A stretch of 64,000 nucleotides of DNA, from the NCBI GenBank assembly GCA_030602715.1, contig JAUVZD010000002.1, positions 62,001-126,000 of the forward strand, given 5' to 3'. Below are positions 5,217 to 45,271 of the stretch, one piece after another. How positions within the stretch are numbered: the stretch's first letter is position 1; each line of letters starts with the position of its first letter. A model generated the notes under the pieces. That model searched no databases and was not told the DNA's origin. It saw only the letters and a list, made by a program, of their open reading frames with translations. The DNA is from Candidatus Coatesiibacteriota bacterium. GTDB lineage: Bacteria > RBG-13-66-14 > B26-G2 > JAUVZD01. The translations under genes and the position numbers were made by a program.

Positions 5217-6359
5217 TCAATCCTTCAGTAGTTGACCGCTGATCACCAATCTCTGTATCTCGCTGGTGCCCTCGTATATCTCGGTTATGCGGGCATCACG
5301 AAAGAGACGCTCCACGACATATTCTTTCATGTAACCGTATCCGCCGTGAATCTGCAGTGCCTTGTCGGCGACCCAGTTCGCTGTCTCGCTGGCATAGAGT
5401 TTGGCGGTCGCCGCCTCCAGGGAGAAGGGTTTCCCCGCATCTTTAGCCCAAGCAGACCGCAGGGTGAGCAAGCGAGCCGCATCCACCCGCATTGCCATAT
5501 CCGCCAGCATAAACTGTATCGCCTGAAACTTGCAGATGGGACGACCGAACTGCTCCCGCTCCTTGGAATAGGAGGTGGCTTCCTCCAAAGCCCTCTGGGC
5601 TATGCCGGTCGCCTGGGCGGCGATTCCGATGCGCCCGCCGTCAAGGAGACCCAGACCGATGGACATCCCCTTCCCCTCCTCGCCCAGAAGGTTGGTCTTG
5701 GGCACCTTGCAGTCCTCAAAGATCAACTCCCGGGTATCGGTGGCTCGGATGCCCATCTTGACCTCCTTCTTGCCCAACCTGAAGCCGGGGGTATCCTTCT
5801 CCACAATCAGGCAGGACAATCCCTTGGCGCCGGCTTCTTTATCGGTGGAGACGAAGAGCAGGAAGAGGTCGGCAAATCCGCCGTTGGTGATGAAGGTTTT
5901 GGTGCCGTTGATGACGTAGTCATCACCCTTTTTCACCCCGCTGGTGGTCATACTGCCCACATCGGAGCCGGCGCTCGGCTCGGTCATGGCGAAGGCGCCT
6001 ATCACCTCACCCGTTGCCAGTTTGGGAAGATACTTCTTCCTCTGCTCCTCGCTTCCGTATTTGATAAACCCTTCAGCCACCAGGCTGAGCTGGATGGAGA
6101 TGGTGGTCGCCGTCGCCGCACAACCCCGAGCCATCTGCTCCATCACCAGAGCATAGGATATGGTATCAAGCCCGGCGCCGCCGTATTTCTCCGGGATGGT
6201 TATCCCCATATAGCCCAACTCCCCCAGCTTCTTGATGGCGGAGAGATTGGGCTCGTCCTTCTCGTCATACTCAGCGGCTTCCACCGCCAGGACCTCATCG
6301 GAGAACTCCTTGGCGGTGTCCCGGATCATCTTCTGGTCGTCGGTCAGCATAAAATCCAT
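5217..6359 (-). CDS. Acyl-CoA dehydrogenase, second paralogue
   Basis: Same family and length (380 residues) as its downstream neighbour but clearly diverged, so this is an old duplication, not a recent repeat. Visible motifs are [61 protein letters not shown] and [13 protein letters not shown] with the canonical catalytic glutamate, as in butyryl-CoA dehydrogenases. It starts at ATG 6359, 62 bases after the biotin carrier gene. Two dehydrogenases in one operon suggest two acyl-CoA substrates, for example isovaleryl-CoA plus another branched or straight short chain. No electron-transfer flavoprotein genes are in the window. Confidence 0.93.
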   Translation of the reverse strand: MDFMLTDDQKMIRDTAKEFSDEVLAVEAAEYDEKDEPNLSAIKKLGELGYMGITIPEKYGGAGLDTISYALVMEQMARGCAATATTISIQLSLVAEGFIKYGSEEQRKKYLPKLATGEVIGAFAMTEPSAGSDVGSMTTSGVKKGDDYVINGTKTFITNGGFADLFLLFVSTDKEAGAKGLSCLIVEKDTPGFRLGKKEVKMGIRATDTRELIFEDCKVPKTNLLGEEGKGMSIGLGLLDGGRIGIAAQATGIAQRALEEATSYSKEREQFGRPICKFQAIQFMLADMAMRVDAARLLTLRSAWAKDAGKPFSLEAATAKLYASETANWVADKALQIHGGYGYMKEYVVERLFRDARITEIYEGTSEIQRLVISGQLLKD

Positions 6360-6421: not shown

Positions 6422-6934
6422 TCAGCTCTCGCCAACCTCCACCTCCACCAACACCTGGGCGGCGTCAACCAACTCTTCATCCTTTACTAAAATTGAGGAG
6501 ACCTTCCCCGCCTGGGGACTTGCCAGCTCAAGCTCCATCTTCATCGCCTCCAGGATGACCAGCACCTCCCCGGCGCCCACTTCATCCCCCTCGCCGATAC
6601 ACACCTTGACCACCTTGCCGGGCATGGGCGCCTCCACGCAGAGCATACCGTCACGAACCTCGGCGGCACCCCCACTCAGTTCCCCGCCGACATCCCCCTT
6701 AGGCTCCTCAAACACAAAAGTATGCCCGCCGATGAAGACATAGGTGCGACCCTCACTTATGGCGATGTATGCCCGAACCCGCTCATCCCCCAAAGAAAGC
6801 GCAATAATCCCCGGCTTTCCCGGCGAGATGTTCACTAACCGCTCTCCTTCACCCCAGTCCACCAGCCATCCCCCCTCCTTACTCTCCAGGGATACCGAAA
6901 GCAGATTCTTTCCGCATCTATATTTCAGTTCCAT
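6422..6934 (-). CDS. Biotin carboxyl carrier protein of an acyl-CoA carboxylase
   Basis: Carries biotin between the biotin carboxylase encoded just upstream and the carboxyltransferase encoded at 11.9-13.5 kb. The last 70 of 170 residues form the biotinyl/lipoyl domain (EAPMPGKVVKVCIGEGDEVG...), with the biotinylated lysine in LEAMKMELE. The first 100 residues resemble the BT-type linker of propionyl-/methylcrotonyl-CoA carboxylase alpha chains, so this looks like a split-off C-terminal part of such an alpha subunit. The gap to the biotin carboxylase gene is 21 bases. A GAGGG precedes the ATG at 6934. Confidence 0.92.
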   Translation of the reverse strand: MELKYRCGKNLLSVSLESKEGGWLVDWGEGERLVNISPGKPGIIALSLGDERVRAYIAISEGRTYVFIGGHTFVFEEPKGDVGGELSGGAAEVRDGMLCVEAPMPGKVVKVCIGEGDEVGAGEVLVILEAMKMELELASPQAGKVSSILVKDEELVDAAQVLVEVEVGES

Positions 6935-6955: not shown

Positions 6956-8458
6956 TCACTTGCCTATCTCCCATCGCCCCACATCAAGCCAGGGGTCAAA
7001 AGCCCTCTTCTGGGGGGAATCATCTCCGGCGGTCCTTCCGTCCAGCCCCCGGGTCTCGGCTACGGCGGCGACAGCAGACGCCAGCCCCAGAAGTTCGCTA
7101 TCTTTATCGCTCCGCCAGTCAGCCATATGCTGGTCTATGAAGCCGGTGTGGGTCTCCCCTTTGATAAACGCCGGATGGAGCATCAAATCGTGCAGAAAGC
7201 CCACCGTGGTCTTTATCCCCAGAATGGGGTAGGAGGCAAGTGCGGAAACCATCCGCTTGCGAGCGGACTCCCTATCGGCACCCCAAGCGATGACCTTGGA
7301 TAAGATGGGGTCGTAATAGACGGAGACCTGGTCTCCGGAGGTTATCCCGGAGTCCACCCTGATGCCGGGACCCTTGGGCTCCTCCATGAAGAGTATCTTC
7401 CCGGAGGCGGGCAGAAAGCCCTGTTCGGCGTCCTCGGCATAGATTCGGCATTCAATGGCCCAACCCCGCTGGGATAACTCCTCCTGCTTGAGGGTTAACT
7501 GCTCCCCGGCGGCTATCTTGATCTGCTCCGCCACCAGGTCAACCCCCACCACCGCCTCGGTGATGGGATGCTCCACCTGGATGCGGGCGTTGACCTCCAG
7601 GAAGTAGAAGTCACCCCGGGGAGTGAGCAGGAACTCCACCGTGCCGGCATTCTGATAGCCGGAGGCGGCAACCACCTTGAGCGCCGCATCGCCCATCTCA
7701 GCCCGCAGACCGTCGTCCAGCGCCGGTGAGGGGCTTTCCTCCACAATCTTCTGGTGGCGACGCTGGATGGAGCACTCTCGCTCAAAGAGATGTACCACAT
7801 TACCGTGGGAATCGGCGAGCATCTGAAACTCCACATGGCGGGGCTTCTCCAGAAACTTCTCCAGATACATAGTGGCGTCGCCGAAGGCGGACTCCGCCTC
7901 CCTTGCCGCTCCCTCCAGGGCTTTGGCGAGCTCCTTTTGGTCAGCCGCCACCCGCATACCCTTTCCTCCCCCGCCGGCTGAGGCTTTGATCAGCACTGGA
8001 TAGCCGATGGCGTCGGCTTCTTTAGCGAAGGCTTTGGCGTCCTTGGCGGTTCCGCTCATGCCGGGTATGACCGCAACGCCAGCCTGTGATACCGCCTTGC
8101 GGGCATCCAGCTTGAAGCCCACCAGTTTGAGCGCTTTCGCCGGGGGTCCGATGAAGACCAGGCCTGCTTTAGCCACCTTCCCGGCGAACTTGTGGTTTTC
8201 GGCAAGGAAGCCGTAGCCGGGGTGTATTGCTTCGGCGCCGCACTCCTGGGCGCAGGCGATAATTTTCGCCATATCCAGGTAGGATTCAAGCGCCGGCGGA
8301 GGACCGATGCAGTATGCCTCATCCGCCAGTTGAACATGGAGGGAGTTGACATCGGCTTCAGAATATACGGTAGCGGAGCGCACCCCCAGCTCCCGGCAGG
8401 CATGGATTATCCGCACCGCTATCTCGCCCCTATTGGCTATGAGAATTTTGGAGAACAT
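6956..8458 (-). CDS. Biotin carboxylase subunit (methylcrotonyl-/propionyl-CoA carboxylase alpha type)
   Basis: Uses ATP and bicarbonate to carboxylate biotin. The protein (500 residues) opens with [21 protein letters not shown]. It has the ATP-grasp glycine-rich loop KASAGGGGKGMR, the HVEFQMLAD and ERECSIQRRHQKIVEE signatures and the NARIQVEHPITEAV active-site loop. It is longer than AccC (about 450) and lacks a fused carrier, fitting a split alpha subunit. The ATG at 8458 has no clear ribosome binding site; the sequence just upstream belongs to inserted DNA holding an Mrr-like gene, so the native leader has been replaced. Partial copies of this gene's 5' end occur at 9587-9611 and 10418-10484. 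Confidence 0.95.
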   Translation of the reverse strand: MFSKILIANRGEIAVRIIHACRELGVRSATVYSEADVNSLHVQLADEAYCIGPPPALESYLDMAKIIACAQECGAEAIHPGYGFLAENHKFAGKVAKAGLVFIGPPAKALKLVGFKLDARKAVSQAGVAVIPGMSGTAKDAKAFAKEADAIGYPVLIKASAGGGGKGMRVAADQKELAKALEGAAREAESAFGDATMYLEKFLEKPRHVEFQMLADSHGNVVHLFERECSIQRRHQKIVEESPSPALDDGLRAEMGDAALKVVAASGYQNAGTVEFLLTPRGDFYFLEVNARIQVEHPITEAVVGVDLVAEQIKIAAGEQLTLKQEELSQRGWAIECRIYAEDAEQGFLPASGKILFMEEPKGPGIRVDSGITSGDQVSVYYDPILSKVIAWGADRESARKRMVSALASYPILGIKTTVGFLHDLMLHPAFIKGETHTGFIDQHMADWRSDKDSELLGLASAVAAVAETRGLDGRTAGDDSPQKRAFDPWLDVGRWEIGK

Positions 8459-8476
8459 TGTTGGAGTAAAAAATCC

Positions 8477-9475
8477 TTAAGCAGGCCAGTACACTTTTAT
8501 CAAGGGAACAAGAGCCTTTGTATCAGGGTCAATGCTTTCATAATATTGTACATAGAGTTTTACCAAATCATCTAAATCTATCAGAGTTAACTGATTTTGA
8601 GCGCTTTCCGCTTTGTAATAAGCGTCCTTTGAAAAACCTCCAGTGCTTACAAATAGTCCCACTTCATTTTGCAACAAGACTCCCAAGAAACTATTTATCT
8701 CCTCAATTCCAGAGCGGGTTTTCAGACGATGTTTAACTTGAATTTTAATTCTTGGTTGTTGTATTCCTAAGCCATCAGGGGAAGCTATGATATCTTTACC
8801 TCTATCCGGTCCAGGAGAAGATACTTTAGTTTTATAACCCATAGCCCTTAAAATGCCAGCAACGAATTCTTGCATCTCATCCCATGAAAGCTTAAGTAGC
8901 TTATCTTTAATAAATTCGTTTGCCCTTCCAATTATATTAAGTTTTAATATATCAAATTCTATCTCCTCGTCAGCTATCTCCAAAGGAGTCCCTTCTGGTG
9001 TTTCCCCTTTTAAAAGAGTTTTTATTTCTCCTAATATATCTTCATTCAAAGAAAATAAAGTCTGTATTGCTCCAAGACTATTTCTAGATTCAATGGATAA
9101 ATCGTCTCTAGATACTTTTCCAATCCAATTCACAGGAATTATGTTCTTATAATCTTGAACTATTCCCGGTTCATATTTGTATTCTCCTGTTACTTCACCT
9201 ACAAGATACTCCCGATCTGTTTTATTATAAGAAACTACTACATCGCCTTTTTCTATTTCAAAACGAAATTTGTAAATTTGTTCAAGTGACTTAGCATGTT
9301 GAGCTTTATTATCCTCTTGATAAGCTTCCCATAATCTTTCATCCATCTCTTCTCTACTTGCAACATCTGTCAAGTCACCCATATTATCCCAACCAACAGC
9401 CACACACCCAACCTTCTCAAAGTCATCAATTAGGCGACCCGCCTCACCTGCTCTTACCATCCATCCCTTTTTCAT
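8477..9475 (-). CDS. Mrr-like type IV restriction endonuclease with N-terminal modified-base-reader-like domain
   Basis: Predicted DNA-targeting defence nuclease. The C-terminal third carries the Mrr_cat fold: LSWDEMQEFVAGILRAMGYKT, then PGPDRGKDIIAS with Asp228, then IKIQVKH with Gln246 and Lys248, the QxK form of the PD-(D/E)xK site. The N-terminal 130 residues (WMVRAGEAGRLIDDF..., GDVVVSYNKTDREYLVGEVTGEY) resemble the SMF/EVE-like domains that precede Mrr domains and may read modified DNA; this part is recalled similarity. ATG 9475 is preceded by AGGAG. The gene is AT-rich and lies exactly between remnants of the crotonase and biotin carboxylase genes, so it is a cargo insertion into the carboxylase operon. 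Confidence 0.82.
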   Translation of the reverse strand: MKKGWMVRAGEAGRLIDDFEKVGCVAVGWDNMGDLTDVASREEMDERLWEAYQEDNKAQHAKSLEQIYKFRFEIEKGDVVVSYNKTDREYLVGEVTGEYKYEPGIVQDYKNIIPVNWIGKVSRDDLSIESRNSLGAIQTLFSLNEDILGEIKTLLKGETPEGTPLEIADEEIEFDILKLNIIGRANEFIKDKLLKLSWDEMQEFVAGILRAMGYKTKVSSPGPDRGKDIIASPDGLGIQQPRIKIQVKHRLKTRSGIEEINSFLGVLLQNEVGLFVSTGGFSKDAYYKAESAQNQLTLIDLDDLVKLYVQYYESIDPDTKALVPLIKVYWPA

Positions 9476-9510
9476 TACTACTCAACTCCTTTCGTATAAA
9501 TGATAATTAT

Positions 9511-9611
9511 CTATCCCGCCCACTTGGGTTTCCTCTTCTCAAAGAAGGCAGACATCCCCTCCTGTCCCTCCTCACTCACCCGCATCTTGGCTATGAGGAT
9601 TTTGGTGAAAA
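9511..9611 (-). pseudogene. Chimeric remnant 1: biotin carboxylase 5' scrap fused to crotonase 3' end
   Basis: Read on the minus strand, a short piece matching the first codons of the biotin carboxylase gene (about 9611-9587) runs into a copy of the last 27 codons of the crotonase gene, ending in TAG at 9511. Both parents contain the eight-base word TTGGCTAT (plus strand, 9587-9594), and the join lies in it. The crotonase part encodes [20 protein letters not shown], then RKPKWAG and a stop: one residue differs from the intact gene, while many bases differ silently. It separates the Mrr-like gene from the helix-hairpin-helix gene. Confidence 0.85.
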
Positions 9612-10277
9612 AGATAGTCCCTCTTCTAGTATATCTTTACATTTGGCGTATATGAATAAGCACCTTTCAATCCGTCTTGCCGTTGTATCGAATTGCCCGG
9701 CCCATTTCCGTAAATATTTTATATATAGCCACCAATCATCAACAGAATAGCTATAAACCCCTATTCCGTTTCGGTCTACACCTTTTTCCCTTTTCCGCGT
9801 TTTCGTTAAATCACATGGTAGGTTTTTTATAGATAATGGTTCCCAATCAATAGTTAATAAATCCCAAACGTGGTAGTCCAAAACGCCATATTTTTCGGGG
9901 TTTAAAAACATTAGTATAGCCGAACCTACACCCACACCGACGCCCTTTAACTTTTTCGTTCCTTTTTCAAATGCTAGTAAATGTATTTTCTTTTTAGAGT
10001 CCCCCTCATCTTCGTCCGATCCAATATTAAATATTTGCCTAAAAATTCCGTTTATCTTTTCTTTTTCGTTACCTTCGTAAAGGTCCGGGCGTCTTGGACT
10101 TTTCCATTTGCACACTTCTACGAAATCCTTTTCGTTGTTAAAGTGCCCTTTCTGCTTAACTTCTTCTATAATTCCGAAAATCCTTTTGGTTTTTTCGTTC
10201 TCTTCCGCTTTTAAGATGTAGGAATTCGCCGTTAATAAATCTTCTATCGTATTGTATTTTTTGATCGATATTTCCAT
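9591..10277 (-). CDS. Helix-hairpin-helix (HhH-GPD-like) protein of unknown function
   Basis: No named family recognised. The 228-residue protein contains LKGVGVGVGSAILMFLNP followed by YGVLDYHVWDLL. This resembles the helix-hairpin-helix plus conserved aspartate of the HhH-GPD DNA glycosylase superfamily (compare VDTHV in endonuclease III), so base-excision or DNA-binding activity is possible. ECVCKW-type residues are limited to VCKWKSPRRPDLYEG near residue 70, which is common in small HhH proteins of this kind. I place the start at ATG 10277, since the preceding in-frame codons belong to remnant 2. The stop TAG at 9591 and the last six or so codons fall inside remnant 1, so the natural C-terminus may have been altered on insertion. 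AT-rich; accessory cargo. Confidence 0.7.
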   Translation of the reverse strand: MEISIKKYNTIEDLLTANSYILKAEENEKTKRIFGIIEEVKQKGHFNNEKDFVEVCKWKSPRRPDLYEGNEKEKINGIFRQIFNIGSDEDEGDSKKKIHLLAFEKGTKKLKGVGVGVGSAILMFLNPEKYGVLDYHVWDLLTIDWEPLSIKNLPCDLTKTRKREKGVDRNGIGVYSYSVDDWWLYIKYLRKWAGQFDTTARRIERCLFIYAKCKDILEEGLSFSPKSS

Positions 10278-10293
10278 CGTAACCTTTTTCTCC

Positions 10294-10484
10294 TCAATAC
10301 ACCCACTCCGGTTTCCTCTTCTCAAAAAAGGCGCTCATGCCCTCCTGTCCCTCCTCACTCACCCGCATCTTGGCTATCGCCTCGGCGGTGTAGCCCTTGA
10401 CCTCGCTGATGGGCTTTCCCGGCAGGCGCGGATTATGCGCACCGCTATTTCGCCCCTATTGGCTATGAGGATTTTGGAGAACAT
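10294..10484 (-). pseudogene. Chimeric remnant 2: biotin carboxylase 5' end fused to crotonase 3' end
   Basis: On the minus strand this begins with ATG at 10484 and 23 codons nearly identical to the start of the biotin carboxylase ([18 protein letters not shown] then RACRE; His to Arg is the one change). At the shared word CCCGGCA (10418-10424) it switches, out of frame, to the last 42 or so codons of the crotonase gene ([20 protein letters not shown] ... KRKPEWVY, stop at 10294). Its crotonase part shares about eight bases with remnant 1 that the intact gene at 10713 lacks, so both came from a diverged allele. It lies between the HhH gene and the zinc-ribbon gene. Confidence 0.88.
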
Positions 10485-10503
10485 ATAGTGTAAAACCAAC
10501 TGC

Positions 10504-10683
10504 CTAATTATTGTCTTTTTCTAGTATTGCGAATTTGTCCATTTCCTTCATTCTTCTTCCATAACCCTTAACAGTATACCCACAATTTGGATTTGAACAG
10601 ACCCAGAAATAGAAAAATCTCTTTTCCGAAGACAAAGGCAACAAATTCCCTTTTTTGCAAATAAAACACTTTGGAAATTCCAT
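10504..10683 (-). CDS. Zinc-ribbon microprotein (59 residues)
   Basis: Small protein of unknown function. It begins [19 protein letters not shown] with a CxxC knuckle (Cys6, Cys9), then an aromatic strand [15 protein letters not shown] with a Cx4C pair (Cys29, Cys34), together a plausible four-cysteine zinc ribbon like those of topoisomerase-type or restriction-associated zinc fingers. The tail is basic then acidic. GGGGGTGAG precedes ATG 10683 at good spacing, supporting real translation. It lies between the intact crotonase gene and remnant 2, the third cargo gene of this hot spot, and is AT-rich. Confidence 0.72.
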
Positions 10684-10712
10684 AATTTTCTCACCCCCTC
10701 ATATATTTAATC

Positions 10713-11504
10713 TCACCCAACCCACTTTGGCTTGCGCTTCTCAAAGAAGGCGCTCATGCCCTCCTGACCCTCCTCGCTGACGCGCATTTTGGCTATAGCC
10801 TCGGCGGTGTATCCTTTGACCTCGGAGATGGGTCTGCCCGGCACCCTCTGGAGAAGTTCCTTGCAGGTGGCGATCGCCTCCGGTCCGGAGGTGAGCAGGG
10901 CGCCGATTATCTCATCAACCGCCGAATCCAGCTCCTTTAAAGGAACTACTTTGTTTACCAGTCCGGCGGACAAAGCCCGTTCAGCGGTCAACCGCTCACC
11001 GGTGAGGAAGAACTCCCGTGCTTTGGATTCCCCCACCCGGCGGATGACATAGGGGCTGATGCAGGCCGGCACCAGTCCCAGCTTGACCTCGGAGAGGGAG
11101 AGCACCGCGCTCCCGGCGACGACGGCGATATCGCAGGCGGCTACCAAGCCGGTGCCCCCACCGATGGCGGAGCCGTTCACCCGGGCGATGGTGGGCTTCT
11201 TGCAGGTGAATATCGCCTCCATCAGGTCGGCGACTTTGTTGGACTCGGCGAGGTTCTCCTGGTAGGAGTATTTGATTATCTCCCGCATCCAGTTGAGGTC
11301 CGCCCCGGCGCAGAAGGACTTGCCCTCGCCGGTGAGCACCACCACCCGCACATCACCGTCTTTTCCCAGCTTGGCGAAGGCGTCCAGCAGGTCAAGCAAC
11401 ATCTGATAGTTGAAGGCGTTGTGCACCTTGGGGCGGTTGAGGGTGATGCGGCAGACCCGGTCGGCGGTCTCTACTTTTATGGTTTTGTAGGGCATGGACT
11501 TCAT
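10713..11504 (-). CDS. Enoyl-CoA hydratase/isomerase, methylglutaconyl-CoA hydratase-like
   Basis: Crotonase-fold hydratase; its neighbours suggest hydration of 3-methylglutaconyl-CoA to HMG-CoA. The 263-residue protein has the oxyanion-hole segments SFCAGADLNWM and GSAIGGGTGLVAACDIAV, a SEVKLGLVPACISPYV strand and the AFFEKRKPKW tail typical of crotonases. The CAGADLNWM form is characteristic of AUH/LiuC-type hydratases. The start could be ATG 11504 or ATG 11495; neither has a strong ribosome binding site. Its 3' end is the source sequence of remnants at 9511-9598 and 10294-10424. In the ancestral order its stop probably lay just before the biotin carboxylase start. Confidence 0.92.
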   Translation of the reverse strand: MKSMPYKTIKVETADRVCRITLNRPKVHNAFNYQMLLDLLDAFAKLGKDGDVRVVVLTGEGKSFCAGADLNWMREIIKYSYQENLAESNKVADLMEAIFTCKKPTIARVNGSAIGGGTGLVAACDIAVVAGSAVLSLSEVKLGLVPACISPYVIRRVGESKAREFFLTGERLTAERALSAGLVNKVVPLKELDSAVDEIIGALLTSGPEAIATCKELLQRVPGRPISEVKGYTAEAIAKMRVSEEGQEGMSAFFEKRKPKWVG

Positions 11505-11512
11505 AATTTCAA

Positions 11513-11845
11513 TTAAACAACCACCCCACCCTCTCTAACATTTAATAGTAATGGGCTATTATAGTTTTCATACTTATCTTCAGTAGTAGGAAGCAATGTG
11601 AGTAAAACACCATATTTCACATTTAACTCGTAAACCATATCACAAGTCGCATCTATCTCCCTGGAAGCCCCACCCGGTATCAACTTCTTTAGCACCACCA
11701 GCACATCTATGTCCGAATCCTCATCCGCTTCGCCACGGGCGTGGCTACCGTAAAGGATTAGTTTGACTAACTGGTCGCCGTAATGCTCGCTTAGCGCTTA
11801 CTTCAGCTCGGCGAGTATATCCTTTATGTCTTCCACACCTAACAT
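11513..11845 (-). pseudogene. MNT-type nucleotidyltransferase interrupted by an in-frame stop
   Basis: Starting at ATG 11845 the frame encodes MLGVEDIKDILAELK, then TAA at 11798-11800. It continues in the same frame as ALSEHYGDQLVKLILYGSHARGEADEDSDIDVLV and on to a stop at 11513. The GSxARGEADxxSDIDxLV motif is the catalytic signature of minimal nucleotidyltransferases, often partners of HEPN proteins in toxin-antitoxin pairs. Only the one stop disrupts an otherwise intact frame of about 110 codons, so this is a young pseudogene or a truncated product restarting inside. No HEPN partner is adjacent. It sits between the carboxyltransferase and crotonase genes. Confidence 0.75.
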
Positions 11846-11852
11846 AATCTAC

Positions 11853-13460
11853 CTACATCCTAAATATACCATACTTAGTCTCCGGGATGTCCGCATTCAA
11901 GCTCATGGAGATGCCCAGCGCCAGAGCGGTGCGAGTTTCAGTCGGTTCTATGATGCCGTCGTCCCAGATGTGGGCTGTGGAGTAATAGGGCGTTGATTGG
12001 GCTTCATACTCATCAATTATTGGCTTGCGAATCTCCTCTATCTCCTTTTTGGTCAGCTTCTTGCCCTGCTTCTCAAGTTGGCGGACTTTGACCATCGCCA
12101 GCACATCGGCGGCTTGCTCCCCTCCCATCACGCAGATGCGGGAGTTGGGCCACATCCACAACAGCCGGGCGCCATAGGCTCGTCCGCACATGGCGTAGTT
12201 GCCGGCGCCGAAGGATCCGCCCACGATGACGGTCAACTTGGGAACATCGGCGCAAGCAACCGCATGCACCATCTTGGCGCCGTCCCGGGCGATTCCCCCG
12301 TGCTCATACTGCTTGCCGACGATAAAGCCGGTGATGTTCTGCAGGAAGATGATGGGTATACGCCGCATGGTGCACAGTTCAATGAAGTGGCTTGCCTTCA
12401 GCGCCGACTCGCTGAACAACACCCCGTTGTTTCCGATAATGCCCACCGGATAGCCCATAATGCGGGCAAAGCCACAGACCACGGTGGGGGCGTAAAGCTC
12501 CTTGAACTCCTGAAAGCGGGAGCCGTCAAAGATGCGGGCGATGACCTCACGGATGTCGTAGGGCTTGCGCACGCTGGTGGGGATGATGCCGTAAAGCTCC
12601 TCGGGGTCGTAGCGAGGCTCCTCCGGCTCGGTTATCTCCAGCGGGAATTTGCTCGGACGCTCCAGGGCTTCAACGATGTTTCTGGTGATCTCAATTGCAT
12701 GCTCGTCGTTCTGGGCGTAATGGTCGGAGACGCCGGATATGCGGCAGTGGACATCGGCTCCGCCCAGCTCCTCATCGGTGACCTCCTCGCCGGTAGCCGC
12801 CTTCACCAGCGGAGGTCCGCCGATGAAGATGGTGCCCTGCTTGCGCACGATTACCGACTCGTCGCTCATGGCGGGCACATAAGCCCCCCCGGCTGTGCAA
12901 CTACCCAAAACCACCGCAATCTGGGGGATGCCCAGAGCAGAAAGGCGAGCCTGATTGTAGAATATCTTGCCGAAGTGGTCCTTATCCGGGAAGGTGCCCT
13001 CCTGAAGGGGGAGGAAGATGCCCCCGGAGTCCACCAGATAGATGCAGGGCAGGCGGTTCTCCATAGCCACCTGCTGGGCACGGACATGCTTCTTGATGGT
13101 TATGGGGAAGTAGGTTCCGCCCTTCACGGTGGCGTCGTTTGCCACCACCAGCACCTCCCGCCCATGCACCACACCTATGCCGGTGACCATTCCGGCGCAT
13201 GGGGCTTCGTTGTTATACATATCGTAGGCGGCAAAAGCAGATAACTCCAGGAAGGGAGTGTTGCGGTCAAAGAGAATTTCCAACCGTTTGCGCACCGGCA
13301 TTTTACCCCGCTTTATGTGCCTCTCCATTGATTTGGGAGGTCCCCCCTTGCGGACGGTTGAAAGCCTCTCCCTCAACTCATCTTGCAGGCGGAGATTCTC
13401 CTCACGGTTGTTGTTAAACTCCTTGGATTTTGTGTCTATTTTGGACTGTAAGCGATACAT
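11853..13460 (-). CDS. Methylcrotonyl-CoA carboxylase-type carboxyltransferase (beta) subunit
   Basis: Transfers carboxyl from biotin to an acyl-CoA. The family is the 3-methylcrotonyl-CoA carboxylase beta chain rather than propionyl-CoA: [50 protein letters not shown] and [20 protein letters not shown] are all MCC-like. The [18 protein letters not shown] and [14 protein letters not shown] motifs form the second crotonase-like half. Start is ATG 13460 (MYRLQSKI); a GTG two codons upstream (13466) is possible. Length about 535 residues is normal. With the biotin carboxylase and carrier genes downstream it completes a three-subunit MCC of the leucine pathway, making 3-methylglutaconyl-CoA. Confidence 0.93.
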
Positions 13461-13485
13461 TCCCACTCATCCAGAAAAAAGGAAA

Positions 13486-41638: not shown

Positions 41639-41716
41639 TCACCCCCCCCTCCGAAACCTCGCCACCACCGCCCCGCCGGGGATTCTGCCGAAGAGGAGTA
41701 TATCCAGGACCGAAAA
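41639..41716 (-). pseudogene. Duplicated 3' end of the methyltransferase gene (remnant 3)
   Basis: On the minus strand this encodes FSVLDILLFGRIPGGAVVAR then FRRGG and a stop. It matches the last 25 codons of the intact gene at 43192 in 22 positions (FSALDILLFGKIPGGAVVAR then FRRGE). No further similarity extends upstream. It sits between the nuclease-like gene and the GT39 gene, as if an inserted segment had left a copy of its neighbour's end, like the remnants at 9.5 and 10.4 kb. Confidence 0.85.
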
Positions 41717-41794
41717 GAGGGACTGTGTGACGGGTAAGCCATTCCAGGCTTGACATTTGTTGCCGGGATTGGTAAAACCCGCCCAAGAGGAGTT

Positions 41795-43105
41795 ATGGAA
41801 AAGGTCAATGACAAATCCCATGACCGTCGCCGGGTGATTTACTGGGCGCTGGCTGTCTTTCTAGCCGCCCTACTGCTCCGCCTTATAGTTATTATATTAT
41901 GGGCACCAGAGCCACTATACGACTGGGTAGAATATCTAAAACTGGCAAAAAGCCTGGCAGAAGGGTCCGGCTTTATGGTGGATGGAATTGCGAATACAAT
42001 CAGAGCGCCTCTATACCCAGCCTTCCTGGGGATCATACATTATATAACAGGCGGCGAACCTTATCGCACTGCAACCATATTGCAATCAATTCTTTCCGCC
42101 TTTACGTGCGTCATTATATTTTTACTGACACGAGACAGTTGGGGCGAAAAGATAGGGTTAACAGCCGGAATAATCGCAATATTAGCTCCAGATTTAATCC
42201 TCTATAACGCCTATCTACTAACAGAGACCTTATTCATCTTTGAGGTCTCGCTACTTGTCTATTGCTTATATAAACACAGCGACAAGCTATTGGGATGGAT
42301 TGTGACCGGTTTGTTATTGGGACTTGCAGCATTAACCCGACCCACAATTCTGTTCTTTTTACCATTCTTATTTTTATGGATATATTTCATAAAGAAAGTA
42401 AAAATATATAAGCTCCTTTTGATTCCATTAATCACGTTTGTGGTTATTACACCCTGGACGGTGCATAACTCCATTGTATCCGGCTCGTTCGGATTCGTAA
42501 GGAACGATGGTCCTGTAAACCTATTTATTGGCAACAGCGAAAACGCGACTGGAAAAGATTGTTATTTAGAAGATGACCCCCGTTTTAATAGTGAACTTTC
42601 AGAAACAGAAAAAAATTCCAAATGCTATCGTGAAGTATTTAACTTCATCTCTAAAAATCCTTTGAAGGAATTAAGATTGATTGCCTTGAAATCCATATTT
42701 TTTATAACACCAACCGGCGATATTTATGGCATCTCAAAAAATTACAAATTGCCGAATATTATTATGTATTTTATCACTGGTCTATTCTTTGAATTCATCT
42801 TATTAGGAGCAGTAGCCCTGTGTTTCTCCAATAACATCAAAGGTATTTCCATTTATTGGTTATATATCGCCTCCGTATTTTTTGTGGTGCTGGTTTTCTT
42901 CTTCCAGGAGCGCTACCGCATCACCACCTATCCGACTCTGATTCCCCTGGCGGCGGCTGGATGGGCTTTTTTATCGGGCAGAGAACAACGAAAGCGAAAA
43001 GTGATAATCGTCGCTTTTATAATGATTATACAACTAATCTTAGGGTTGTTCGCCCTAGCACTGCGACCAGACATCATCGTGAGCATTCGTAAAATATTTG
43101 CTTAG
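41795..43105 (+). CDS. Glycosyltransferase family 39-like membrane protein
   Basis: Probably transfers sugar from a polyprenyl donor in the membrane. About ten hydrophobic segments run through 436 residues, e.g. YWALAVFLAALLLRLIVIIL, LLGWIVTGLLLGLAALTRPT and LLLIPLITFVVITPW. The luminal YDWVEYLKLAKSLAEGSGF with an acidic residue after the first helix is the GT39/ArnT-like active-site loop. TLIPLAAAGWAFLSG is near the end. ATG 41795 is close to AGAGGAG (two-base spacer); upstream in-frame codons overlap the remnant, so I start here. It is AT-richer than its flanks and lies between the intact methyltransferase gene (convergent) and that gene's duplicated end. Confidence 0.8.
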   Translation: MEKVNDKSHDRRRVIYWALAVFLAALLLRLIVIILWAPEPLYDWVEYLKLAKSLAEGSGFMVDGIANTIRAPLYPAFLGIIHYITGGEPYRTATILQSILSAFTCVIIFLLTRDSWGEKIGLTAGIIAILAPDLILYNAYLLTETLFIFEVSLLVYCLYKHSDKLLGWIVTGLLLGLAALTRPTILFFLPFLFLWIYFIKKVKIYKLLLIPLITFVVITPWTVHNSIVSGSFGFVRNDGPVNLFIGNSENATGKDCYLEDDPRFNSELSETEKNSKCYREVFNFISKNPLKELRLIALKSIFFITPTGDIYGISKNYKLPNIIMYFITGLFFEFILLGAVALCFSNNIKGISIYWLYIASVFFVVLVFFFQERYRITTYPTLIPLAAAGWAFLSGREQRKRKVIIVAFIMIIQLILGLFALALRPDIIVSIRKIFA

Positions 43106-43191: not shown

Positions 43192-44076
43192 TCACTCCCC
43201 CCTCCTAAACCGCGCCACCACCGCCCCACCGGGGATTTTGCCGAAGAGGAGTATGTCCAACGCGGAGAACACCGCCAGGGCTTTTAACAGTATTCGCACC
43301 ACCATTCCCTTTATCCCCTTACTCCGCTTCCACCCTTCAGGCGGTTCACATTCACCGCCGGTCTCCCGTTTTTTATGAAGCGGAGCATCTCCTCTCTCCA
43401 TCAGCTTATCCTTAGTCCACCTAATTATCGGCTGAAATAGGTGCTTATAATAGACCGCCCGCTCCAAAACCAGCCCGCTTCTCCTCGCCAGAACCGCAAG
43501 CTCCCCGATAGTCAACCGATTGCGATGACCATCCTTCAGGTCGTAGCGGTCCAATCTCCCCTCGCCCCCTCCAAAAAACCAAGCCCCCAGCCTACGAAGA
43601 TACCAGCCCCAGCAGGAAGTATGCAGCACCACCCTACCGCCATAAGTGGTTACCCGAGCCATCTCGTCCAATGCCTGTGGTATGTCCTTTGGATACAGGT
43701 GCTCAAGAAAATCCGAGCACATTACCCAACGGAAACTGCCATCCACAAAGGGCAGAGCTAATCCATCGGCGGTCAAACGGATGCCCTTATAATCAACCAG
43801 CGATTCGGTGGCAATATCAGTAAGCACCCCCACCGCACCACTTCCTTTTAACACATAGTCAAAGACCACTCCTCGTCCACCGCCCACATCCAGCACCATT
43901 TCGCCCTGCTTGGGGGTTAGCAAAGAGCGGAGAAGCCCCACCACCTGATAACCGATAGGACCGAGCAAGAACCATACCGGCTGGGTAACATCCAGAAACA
44001 CCTGCTGGGTGGCGTCTTCACCAGACCAGAAACCTTCAGAATAACGTCGTTCAGCTTCTTCTCTATATTCACTCAT
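43192..44076 (-). CDS. Class I SAM-dependent methyltransferase
   Basis: Small-molecule or glycan methyltransferase. The 294-residue protein has the SAM-binding MVLDVGGGRGVVFDYVL near residue 80, then VGVLTDIATESLVDYKGIRL, and the post-motif RWVMCSDFLEHLYPKDIPQALDEMARV, typical of Methyltransf_11. The tail is basic and hydrophobic (GMVVRILLKALAVFSALDIL), perhaps a membrane-anchoring segment. ATG 44076 overlaps the stop of the GT9 gene in ATGAGTGA and follows AAGGTG. Its last 25 codons are duplicated at 41639-41716. With GT9, radical SAM and GT4 genes upstream it forms a glycan operon. Confidence 0.88.
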   Translation of the reverse strand: MSEYREEAERRYSEGFWSGEDATQQVFLDVTQPVWFLLGPIGYQVVGLLRSLLTPKQGEMVLDVGGGRGVVFDYVLKGSGAVGVLTDIATESLVDYKGIRLTADGLALPFVDGSFRWVMCSDFLEHLYPKDIPQALDEMARVTTYGGRVVLHTSCWGWYLRRLGAWFFGGGEGRLDRYDLKDGHRNRLTIGELAVLARRSGLVLERAVYYKHLFQPIIRWTKDKLMERGDAPLHKKRETGGECEPPEGWKRSKGIKGMVVRILLKALAVFSALDILLFGKIPGGAVVARFRRGE

Positions 44077-45271
44077 TAGAAAACACCTTCGTAAAAGCAC
44101 CCCATACCTTATCTACTTTGATCGCTTCCATGCAGTAGTGTCTCTGGTGGAAGCAGTTGGGGCGCTTACAGCCCCGGCAGGGCGATTCCCCGGCTACTAC
44201 AGCTATCTTACCCGGTCCCACCGGCTTCCAGATGGACTCGTCCCCGGGACCGAAGAGTACCACCAGGGGAACGCCCAACGAGGAGGCAATATGACCGGCG
44301 AATGTATCCAAACTTATCAGTGCATCAGCAAGGCTCACCAGCGCCAGATACCCGGCAACATCAACCTTTCCAGCTAGATTATAAACCCCGTCTCCAATGT
44401 CGGCGCAGAGGGCTTCCGCCAGCCCCCGCTCCTGCTCAGAGCCCCCTACCATCACCCGAAAGCCGGCGGAAAGCAACCTCCCGGCAAGCTCTCGCCAGCG
44501 AGCAAGCGGCCACAGGTAGCTCTCGTTGGCAGAGCCGGGGTGGAGGAGCACCCTCGGCGGTTCAATCTCCGCGACCAAAGCCTGTGCTTGAGACAGCCCC
44601 TGCGGGGAGAGCCGAAGCCGGGGATAAGGCCGGCTGTCGGGCGCCGCCCCGACCAGAGCCAACCACAGGTTGACAATCGGAGGACCGGCTTCCCCCTGGG
44701 GGTAGGCGTAGAGGGGGCGGTTGATGGTCGGCGGTGGTGGGAGAGGACGGCTGAGGGATAAACCCCGTTTATTGCAATTGTAGCCCACCCGGATCGGCGC
44801 TCGGCTGAGAAGGGCTAACAGGATACTTAATGCATCGGTCACCAGGACATAGGCTTGGGTGTAGCGGTTCCCCCTCAGGGTGCGAAGGGTGTCAAGATAA
44901 GCTCGCAATCCACCCTCTTTATCGCAGAGGATGACCCGGTCTACATGGGGATTGTTATCAAGGATGGGGAAAGCCCTTCGGTCGGCGAGGACATCTATGG
45001 TGGCGTGGGGAAAGAGGTAGCGAAGCTGTGAAAGCGTCGGCAGGCTGACGATGGTATCGCCCAATCTGAGAATGCGCTGGATGACTATAATCCGCTCCTG
45101 GGGAGATTCAGCTCGCCCCCCCCTGCGCACAAAAAGCAGAGCAAAGAACCAGGCGAGGGGGAAAGTGAGCACATGGAATATCCCCTCCACAAAGTTTTTC
45201 AGGGAGCGGAGGCGACCGTCCCGCCGCTTGGCTCTCTCTATCTGCGCCAACTCCTTTTCCCCTATCTGCAC
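44069..45271 (-). CDS. Glycosyltransferase family 9 (heptosyltransferase-like)
   Basis: Adds heptose or another sugar to lipid A core-type glycans. The 400-residue protein has the GT9 N-terminus RIIVIQRILRLGDTIVSLPTLSQLRYLFPHATID, seen in two parts, VIQRILRLGDTIVSLPTL and LRYLFPHATIDVLAD. The C-terminal nucleotide-sugar site is VLLHPGSANESYLWP, then GKVDVAGYLALVSLADALISLDTFAGHIA and VVLFGPGDESIWKPVG. Start GTG 45271 with AGGAG four bases upstream. It supports an outer-membrane, LPS-like surface. It is 34 bases after the radical SAM gene. Confidence 0.9.
   Translation of the reverse strand: MQIGEKELAQIERAKRRDGRLRSLKNFVEGIFHVLTFPLAWFFALLFVRRGGRAESPQERIIVIQRILRLGDTIVSLPTLSQLRYLFPHATIDVLADRRAFPILDNNPHVDRVILCDKEGGLRAYLDTLRTLRGNRYTQAYVLVTDALSILLALLSRAPIRVGYNCNKRGLSLSRPLPPPPTINRPLYAYPQGEAGPPIVNLWLALVGAAPDSRPYPRLRLSPQGLSQAQALVAEIEPPRVLLHPGSANESYLWPLARWRELAGRLLSAGFRVMVGGSEQERGLAEALCADIGDGVYNLAGKVDVAGYLALVSLADALISLDTFAGHIASSLGVPLVVLFGPGDESIWKPVGPGKIAVVAGESPCRGCKRPNCFHQRHYCMEAIKVDKVWGAFTKVFSNE

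Follow-up and report, generated by a model that had tools for sequence, protein, structure and literature searches.

Stacked cargo genes separated by chimeric gene-end scraps in an operon of a Candidatus Coatesiibacteriota bacterium: an apparent footprint of integrase-free gene addition

The stack between crotonase and biotin carboxylase

In the window (the whole 64,000-nt stretch of DNA analysed here), the minus strand carries in order genes for a carboxyltransferase, a decayed nucleotidyltransferase, a crotonase and a zinc-ribbon-like protein, a first scrap, a gene for a 228-aa protein, a second scrap, and genes for an Mrr nuclease and a biotin carboxylase (Table 1). Each scrap consists of the start of the biotin carboxylase gene joined to the end of the crotonase gene and lies between two cargo genes, and both parent genes are full length. 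The chimeric stack reported in the earlier note was confirmed in this form, with cargo divided by two-gene scraps and with both parents intact.

Table 1. Features of the stack and of a second scrap site in the window
Feature	Position	Strand	Evidence or remark
Carboxyltransferase	11853-13466	-	Operon gene upstream of crotonase
Intact crotonase (enoyl-CoA hydratase), upstream parent	10713-11504	-	ORF, 263 aa; PF00378 E=1.1e-63
Cargo 1, 59-aa zinc-ribbon-like protein	10504-10683	-	ORF; zinc-finger matches all sub-threshold
Scrap 1, first half, biotin carboxylase start (nt 1-68)	10417-10484	-	93% to 8391-8458
Scrap 1, second half, crotonase 3′ end	10301-10424	-	124 nt, ~85% to 10720-10843; join in TGCCGGG
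Cargo 2, 228-aa AT-rich protein, weakly OGG/HhH-like	9591-10277	-	ORF; PF21790 E=0.004, below cut-off
Scrap 2, first part, ~22-25 nt of biotin carboxylase start	9588-9612	-	21/25 identities; start codon lost
Scrap 2, second part, crotonase 3′ end	9518-9594	-	77 nt; 82-83% to intact gene, 90-91% to scrap 1; join in ATAGCCAA
Cargo 3, Mrr-type restriction nuclease, defence candidate PDC-S02	8477-9475	-	PF04471 E=2.9e-22; PADLOC PDC-S02 E=1.7e-94
Intact biotin carboxylase, downstream parent	6956-8458	-	ORF, 500 aa; Pfam biotin carboxylase domains
Second site, 3′-end scrap of methyltransferase 43192-44100	41639-41706	-	91% over 68 nt, 1485 bp from parent
Second-site cargo, PMT_2-type glycosyltransferase	41750-43105	+ (opposite orientation)	PF13231 E=5.3e-10; GC 41-42%

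Among the cargo identities first proposed, that of the Mrr nuclease is strong, the zinc-ribbon-like label is retained on sub-threshold matches, and the HhH label of the 228-aa protein is only weak. The stretch encoding the latter has a GC content of 37% (52% for the genome), its relatives among 386 genomes amount to four weak matches, its structure prediction has a pLDDT of 34, and no match to it was found among plasmids, phages, and viral contigs, from the last of which the scrap sequence is also absent. Relatives of the Mrr nuclease do occur on plasmids, at 31-43% identity, with no link from these to the site, and carriage of the cargo by known phages or plasmids was rejected on these grounds. 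Direct repeats of the scrap kind were not found in the 4-kb loci around Mrr relatives from the phylum. Between the carboxyltransferase and crotonase genes, positions 11513-11846 hold a nucleotidyltransferase (MNT) gene that has an in-frame stop after ~16 codons and is without a HEPN partner.

The scraps match their parents by blast with E-values of 1e-22 to 1e-34. The biotin carboxylase part of scrap 2 is far shorter than that of scrap 1 (~25 versus 68 nt), but its match is equalled by only 6 of 200,000 random genome windows and is therefore not due to chance. As had been noted at the outset, both joins lie in words common to the intact parents, one of 7 nt (TGCCGGG; P = 0.0014 for random registers) and one of 8 nt (ATAGCCAA; P = 0.0003 for random registers). 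Chance similarity was rejected on these three lines of evidence.

Comparison of the crotonase parts of both scraps, pooled, with the intact gene gives 24 synonymous and 2 non-synonymous codon differences. The scraps are 90% identical to one another over shared columns and each is 82-86% identical to the intact crotonase gene, whereas the crotonase gene of the nearest class relative compared is farther away, at 71-77% over the scrap columns. Since the differences are mostly silent and the scraps are closer than the class relative, the crotonase scraps descend from working alleles, as the earlier note had supposed; as judged from sequence, their divergence from the intact gene is about what alleles of related species could show. 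Scraps of genes other than crotonase have no clear excess of silent changes, and the pooled third-position share (58%, P = 0.012) is mostly driven by crotonase.

Gene-end scraps at this junction in relatives and elsewhere

The earlier note had suggested a search of relatives for the junction, and empty, single-cargo, and differently stacked alleles were all found. The relatives compared (G002 to G005) belong to the same class, being the nearest of the genomes searched that have the operon, and not to the same genus or family. In G005, whose crotonase is 78% identical, the allele is empty, with a 52-bp gap and no cargo. In G004, crotonase is followed by an MNT/HEPN pair, a repeat of the final 60 nt of crotonase, and then directly by the carboxylase. 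G003, whose locus is identical to public record JAUWLW010000012.1 (named Candidatus Zixiibacteriota), has the same pair and crotonase-end scrap as G004, followed by a stretch to the contig end that is labelled helicase-like from its translation, without Pfam. In G002, crotonase, an MNT/HEPN pair, and a crotonase-end scrap that passes into a carboxylase-start scrap are followed by a zinc/membrane protein gene, another carboxylase-start scrap, an HD-like protein gene, and the carboxylase. Gene content between crotonase and carboxylase therefore varies, from nothing in G005 to cargo that differs among G002, G003, G004, and the window, and no mobility gene was detected in the variable segment by Pfam and PADLOC analysis of the cargo. 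The intact MNT/HEPN pairs of G003 and G004 occupy the position that matches the decayed MNT gene of the window.

The arrangement is not peculiar to this junction and is found at other sites in the same genome and in other phyla. When 2.31 Mb of the genome was compared with itself, and repeats were retained in which one copy covers the terminus of a gene extending beyond it while the other copy lies outside such genes, 0.3-5 kb away, 30 direct and 0 inverted gene-end scrap pairs were obtained. Review of the 30 pairs by eye left ~20 loci with gene-end scraps beside cargo, mostly AT-rich; for a few of the pairs, a decayed paralogue or a simple tandem duplication is the probable origin, the latter exemplified by contig C4 at 37.6-39.7 kb, where one cargo gene resembles the other.

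The clearest of these loci is a second, independent chimeric stack on contig C4 of this genome (231.5-239.2 kb), where a radical-SAM gene is followed by HicA, HicB-like, and pentapeptide cargo (the HicB-like ORF being read by eye, without a Pfam match), a scrap, a GmrSD-type nuclease gene (HEC-05), and an intact sodium:dicarboxylate symporter gene. In the scrap, which also holds ~100 bp of DNA preceding the symporter start, that start is joined to the radical-SAM end within an 11-nt common word (GCAGATCAAGC; P = 0.00035). On contig C5 the order is an iron-sulphur gene, MntA/HepT, a scrap, MntA/HepT, and a further scrap. Cargo at other sites includes GmrSD, DUF4258/DUF2283, a PLD-type nuclease (PDC-S05), and an HNH gene, together with a C25 peptidase, a glycosyltransferase, and zinc proteins. 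The median GC content of the 16 cargo stretches measured is 36% against 52% for the genome, a value as low being reached by only 2% of random 1.5-kb windows. The scraps differ in where they end and in length (~25 to >300 nt). The anchor genes are unrelated to one another, and the anchoring homologies are mostly 40-190 nt long with 82-98% identity.

Two further sites were noted in passing. On contig C15 (84570-87680) the start of comEC is duplicated upstream of AT-rich DNA, so that a DNA-uptake gene is itself among the scrap sites. On contig C9 (118428-123148) a helicase-like gene is preceded by its own 5′ and 3′ scraps, which enclose HNH-type cargo, as though the upstream DNA held an older copy of the helicase gene that had been interrupted.

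Scars of this kind were also seen in a Cloacimonadales contig (L091), where cargo between carboxyltransferase and crotonase genes is divided by two crotonase-start scraps and the last cargo gene encodes a DUF1016/PDC-S02 nuclease, and in a Bacteroidetes contig (L086), where a gene end occurs in three copies with AT-rich spacers; the scar is thus not private to this lineage. Both L091 scraps (5336-5445 and 6748-6857) run on for ~40 nt that are alike in the two and absent from the intact gene, a continuation that may come from a more distant crotonase allele. No gene-end scrap pairs were found in a 400-kb stretch of G005. A control scan of 80 genome loci (1.02 Mb) gave 17 direct and 8 inverted pairs, a noisy set to which a single contig with dispersed repeats (L061) contributed many pairs and the contig of G003 itself one. 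In L061, which is from Aminicenantes, several genes have a recurring sequence of 26-37 nt near their ends, apparently a dispersed intergenic repeat and not a gene scrap. Because control loci also yield such pairs, a raised rate of scars in this genome is not claimed.

Assembly of the stack

The stack was probably formed by the addition of horizontally acquired genes to a housekeeping operon through general recombination, without an integrase. Donor fragments consisting of an upstream gene end, cargo, and a downstream gene start, or carrying one of these ends only, would enter the cell, RecA would pair the fragment with the homologous chromosomal gene end, and the other junction of the fragment would be formed at a microhomology of 7-11 bases. 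In the most economical version, the fragment would be circularised at the microhomology and integrated by one crossover, an event that would leave the parent gene whole, bring in the cargo, and deposit a gene-end scrap behind it, and repeated rounds would stack cargo. The survivors would be those insertions that spare both neighbouring genes, and operon junctions would consequently fill with AT-rich defence and toxin-antitoxin genes and scraps; selection may also have acted on the cargo itself.

Nearly all of the arrangements fit one rule, namely that the parent beside the cargo is whole and is separated from the scrap by the cargo, a two-gene scrap reading from the downstream gene's start into the upstream gene's end. 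This is what a single crossover of a microhomology-closed circle leaves. Neither a donor species nor a circle junction came to light, and a linear donor homologous at one end can yield the same products. The circularise-and-integrate model of the earlier note accordingly stands as regards a stack built by recombination, joins at microhomology, and the lack of an integrase, but not as regards the circle as the established intermediate. The anchors are short for RecA, which counts against the mechanism.

Entry of the fragments may have been by transformation or by other uptake. ComEC and DprA are both present in the genome. These proteins occur in non-competent bacteria too, and their presence permits natural transformation without proving it. 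Transformation is able to make merodiploids (PMC3784515).

The circle step, and that step alone, is rivalled by homology-facilitated illegitimate recombination (HFIR), in which a linear donor recombines with one neighbour and its other end is joined at microhomology without a circle; stacking by recombination is common to both readings. The microhomologies at the joins (7, 8, and 11 nt) are within reach of the 3-10 bp reported for HFIR (PMC3240628), a process already proposed for Vibrio T6SS immunity arrays (PMC5361080), and microhomology at one junction is indeed a feature of the stack. HFIR products, however, usually have ~1 kb recipient deletions (PMC3240628), whereas no such deletion is seen beside the insertion, the parent genes examined being whole and the gap in the empty relative being only 52 bp; moreover, re-ligation with a single crossover was ~10 times commoner than HFIR in E. 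coli (PMC3240628). The absence of parent deletions favours circles over HFIR, although the surviving insertions are a selected set, and HFIR is regarded as a somewhat unlikely source of the stack.

Local tandem duplication of the unit of crotonase end, cargo, and carboxylase start at a microhomology, followed by a swap of cargo through recombination with relatives (minimal mobile element exchange), would yield the same chimeric junctions, and the genome does contain a plain tandem duplication with like cargo, on contig C4. Such a history does not yield the one-sided scraps of G003, G004, and G002, however, it requires two kinds of event for each cargo, and the scraps are diverged beyond a recent local duplicate, all of which make it distinctly improbable.

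Insertion of the units by a dedicated mobile system, such as an integrase acting in trans, a homing nuclease, or a recombinase of a new type, is less probable again and is very unlikely. Several of the cargo genes encode nucleases (Mrr, GmrSD, HNH, and DUF1016) that could in principle cut an empty junction, and cargo genes recur as types. Other cargo is non-nuclease (glycosyltransferase, peptidase, and zinc proteins), though, and neither the variable ends and lengths of the scraps nor the unrelated anchor genes suit such a system. The whole genome encodes two tyrosine recombinases only, both on other contigs, and no integrase was found in the cargo or on the contig of the window; the single tRNA gene of the window lies at window position 25.7 kb. 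The integrase and att sites that the earlier note had named as a competing explanation were thus looked for and rejected, there being no integrase nearby and no fixed site.

An assembly artefact or chance similarity can practically be dismissed, for although the source is a draft genome of 18 contigs, the blast matches of the scraps are far too strong and scraps of the same two genes occur in separately assembled genomes, among them JAUWLW010000012.1. Reverse-transcribed operon mRNA was also considered as the source of the units and was rejected, because the cargo at 41750-43105 is antisense to its parent gene and because the C4 scrap includes DNA upstream of the symporter start.

Whether the same route operates widely is a more tentative matter. 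It is possible, although rather doubtful at present, that in many uncultured bacteria fragments bearing short ends of adjacent housekeeping genes recircularise at microhomologies and so stack single-gene defence and toxin-antitoxin modules at operon junctions by a general, integrase-free route, with scraps recording each addition. The question at stake is how single defence genes and toxin-antitoxin pairs enter chromosomes without a transposase or integrase. Gene-end scraps offer a mechanical signature of such entry that can be counted across genomes and dated against the parent gene, and they can be used to infer donors and the order of arrival.

Comparison with known recombination-built arrays

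The earlier note knew of no named system that works in this way, a statement overtaken by several precedents, namely Rhs tips (PMC2935791), re-ligation in E. coli (PMC3240628), T6SS immunity arrays (PMC5361080), and minimal mobile elements (PMC8627216). In E. coli, linear DNA integrates by single crossover after partial degradation and re-ligation, leaving gene-end duplications of 109-950 bp (PMC3240628). As in the stack, the insert is flanked by a duplicated homologous gene end, but the test substrate was a plasmid with 1 kb of homology, and there was neither natural cargo nor stacking (PMC3240628).

For displacement arrays of Rhs C-terminal tips, a single crossover of a circular intermediate has been proposed (Jackson et al. 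2009, PMC2935791). These arrays are likewise strings of GC-poor cargo, each with a piece of the conserved parent gene (PMC2935791), and the stack shares with them the cargo string and the fragments of neighbouring genes. It has no Rhs or effector parent, however; the Rhs arrays involve one gene family with exchangeable toxin tips, whereas the stack involves ordinary metabolic genes, whole cargo genes, and two-gene scraps. Vibrio T6SS immunity arrays resemble the stack in their integrase-free sequential additions, their anchor homology on one side, and their remnants of displaced genes, but there the displaced gene loses its effector, while in the stack both parents remain whole (PMC5361080).

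The minimal mobile element (Saunders and Snyder 2002), as defined in PMC8627216, comprises different genes, often restriction systems, between two conserved genes, and relies on no transfer machinery except homologous recombination. Variable content between conserved genes and a segment without a mobility gene are both found at the stack; the minimal mobile element is nevertheless by definition an exchange between two flanks, while the stack represents addition with chimeric scraps. The integrase and fixed att or attC sites of integrase islands and integron cassettes are absent from the stack.

No account of such stacking at ordinary operon genes was found in the literature searched, which was mostly outside subscription journals. 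The scar looks like the footprint of integrase-free gene addition to operons, a process already known at a few special loci, and scraps that join two housekeeping genes extend stacking of the Rhs and T6SS type beyond toxin loci. The stack is a variation on known recombination-built stacks and not an unnamed system. Its novelty lies in anchoring by ordinary operon genes, in chimeric scraps that join two genes, in recurrence both within a single genome and across phyla, and in how often the cargo is of the defence or toxin-antitoxin type.
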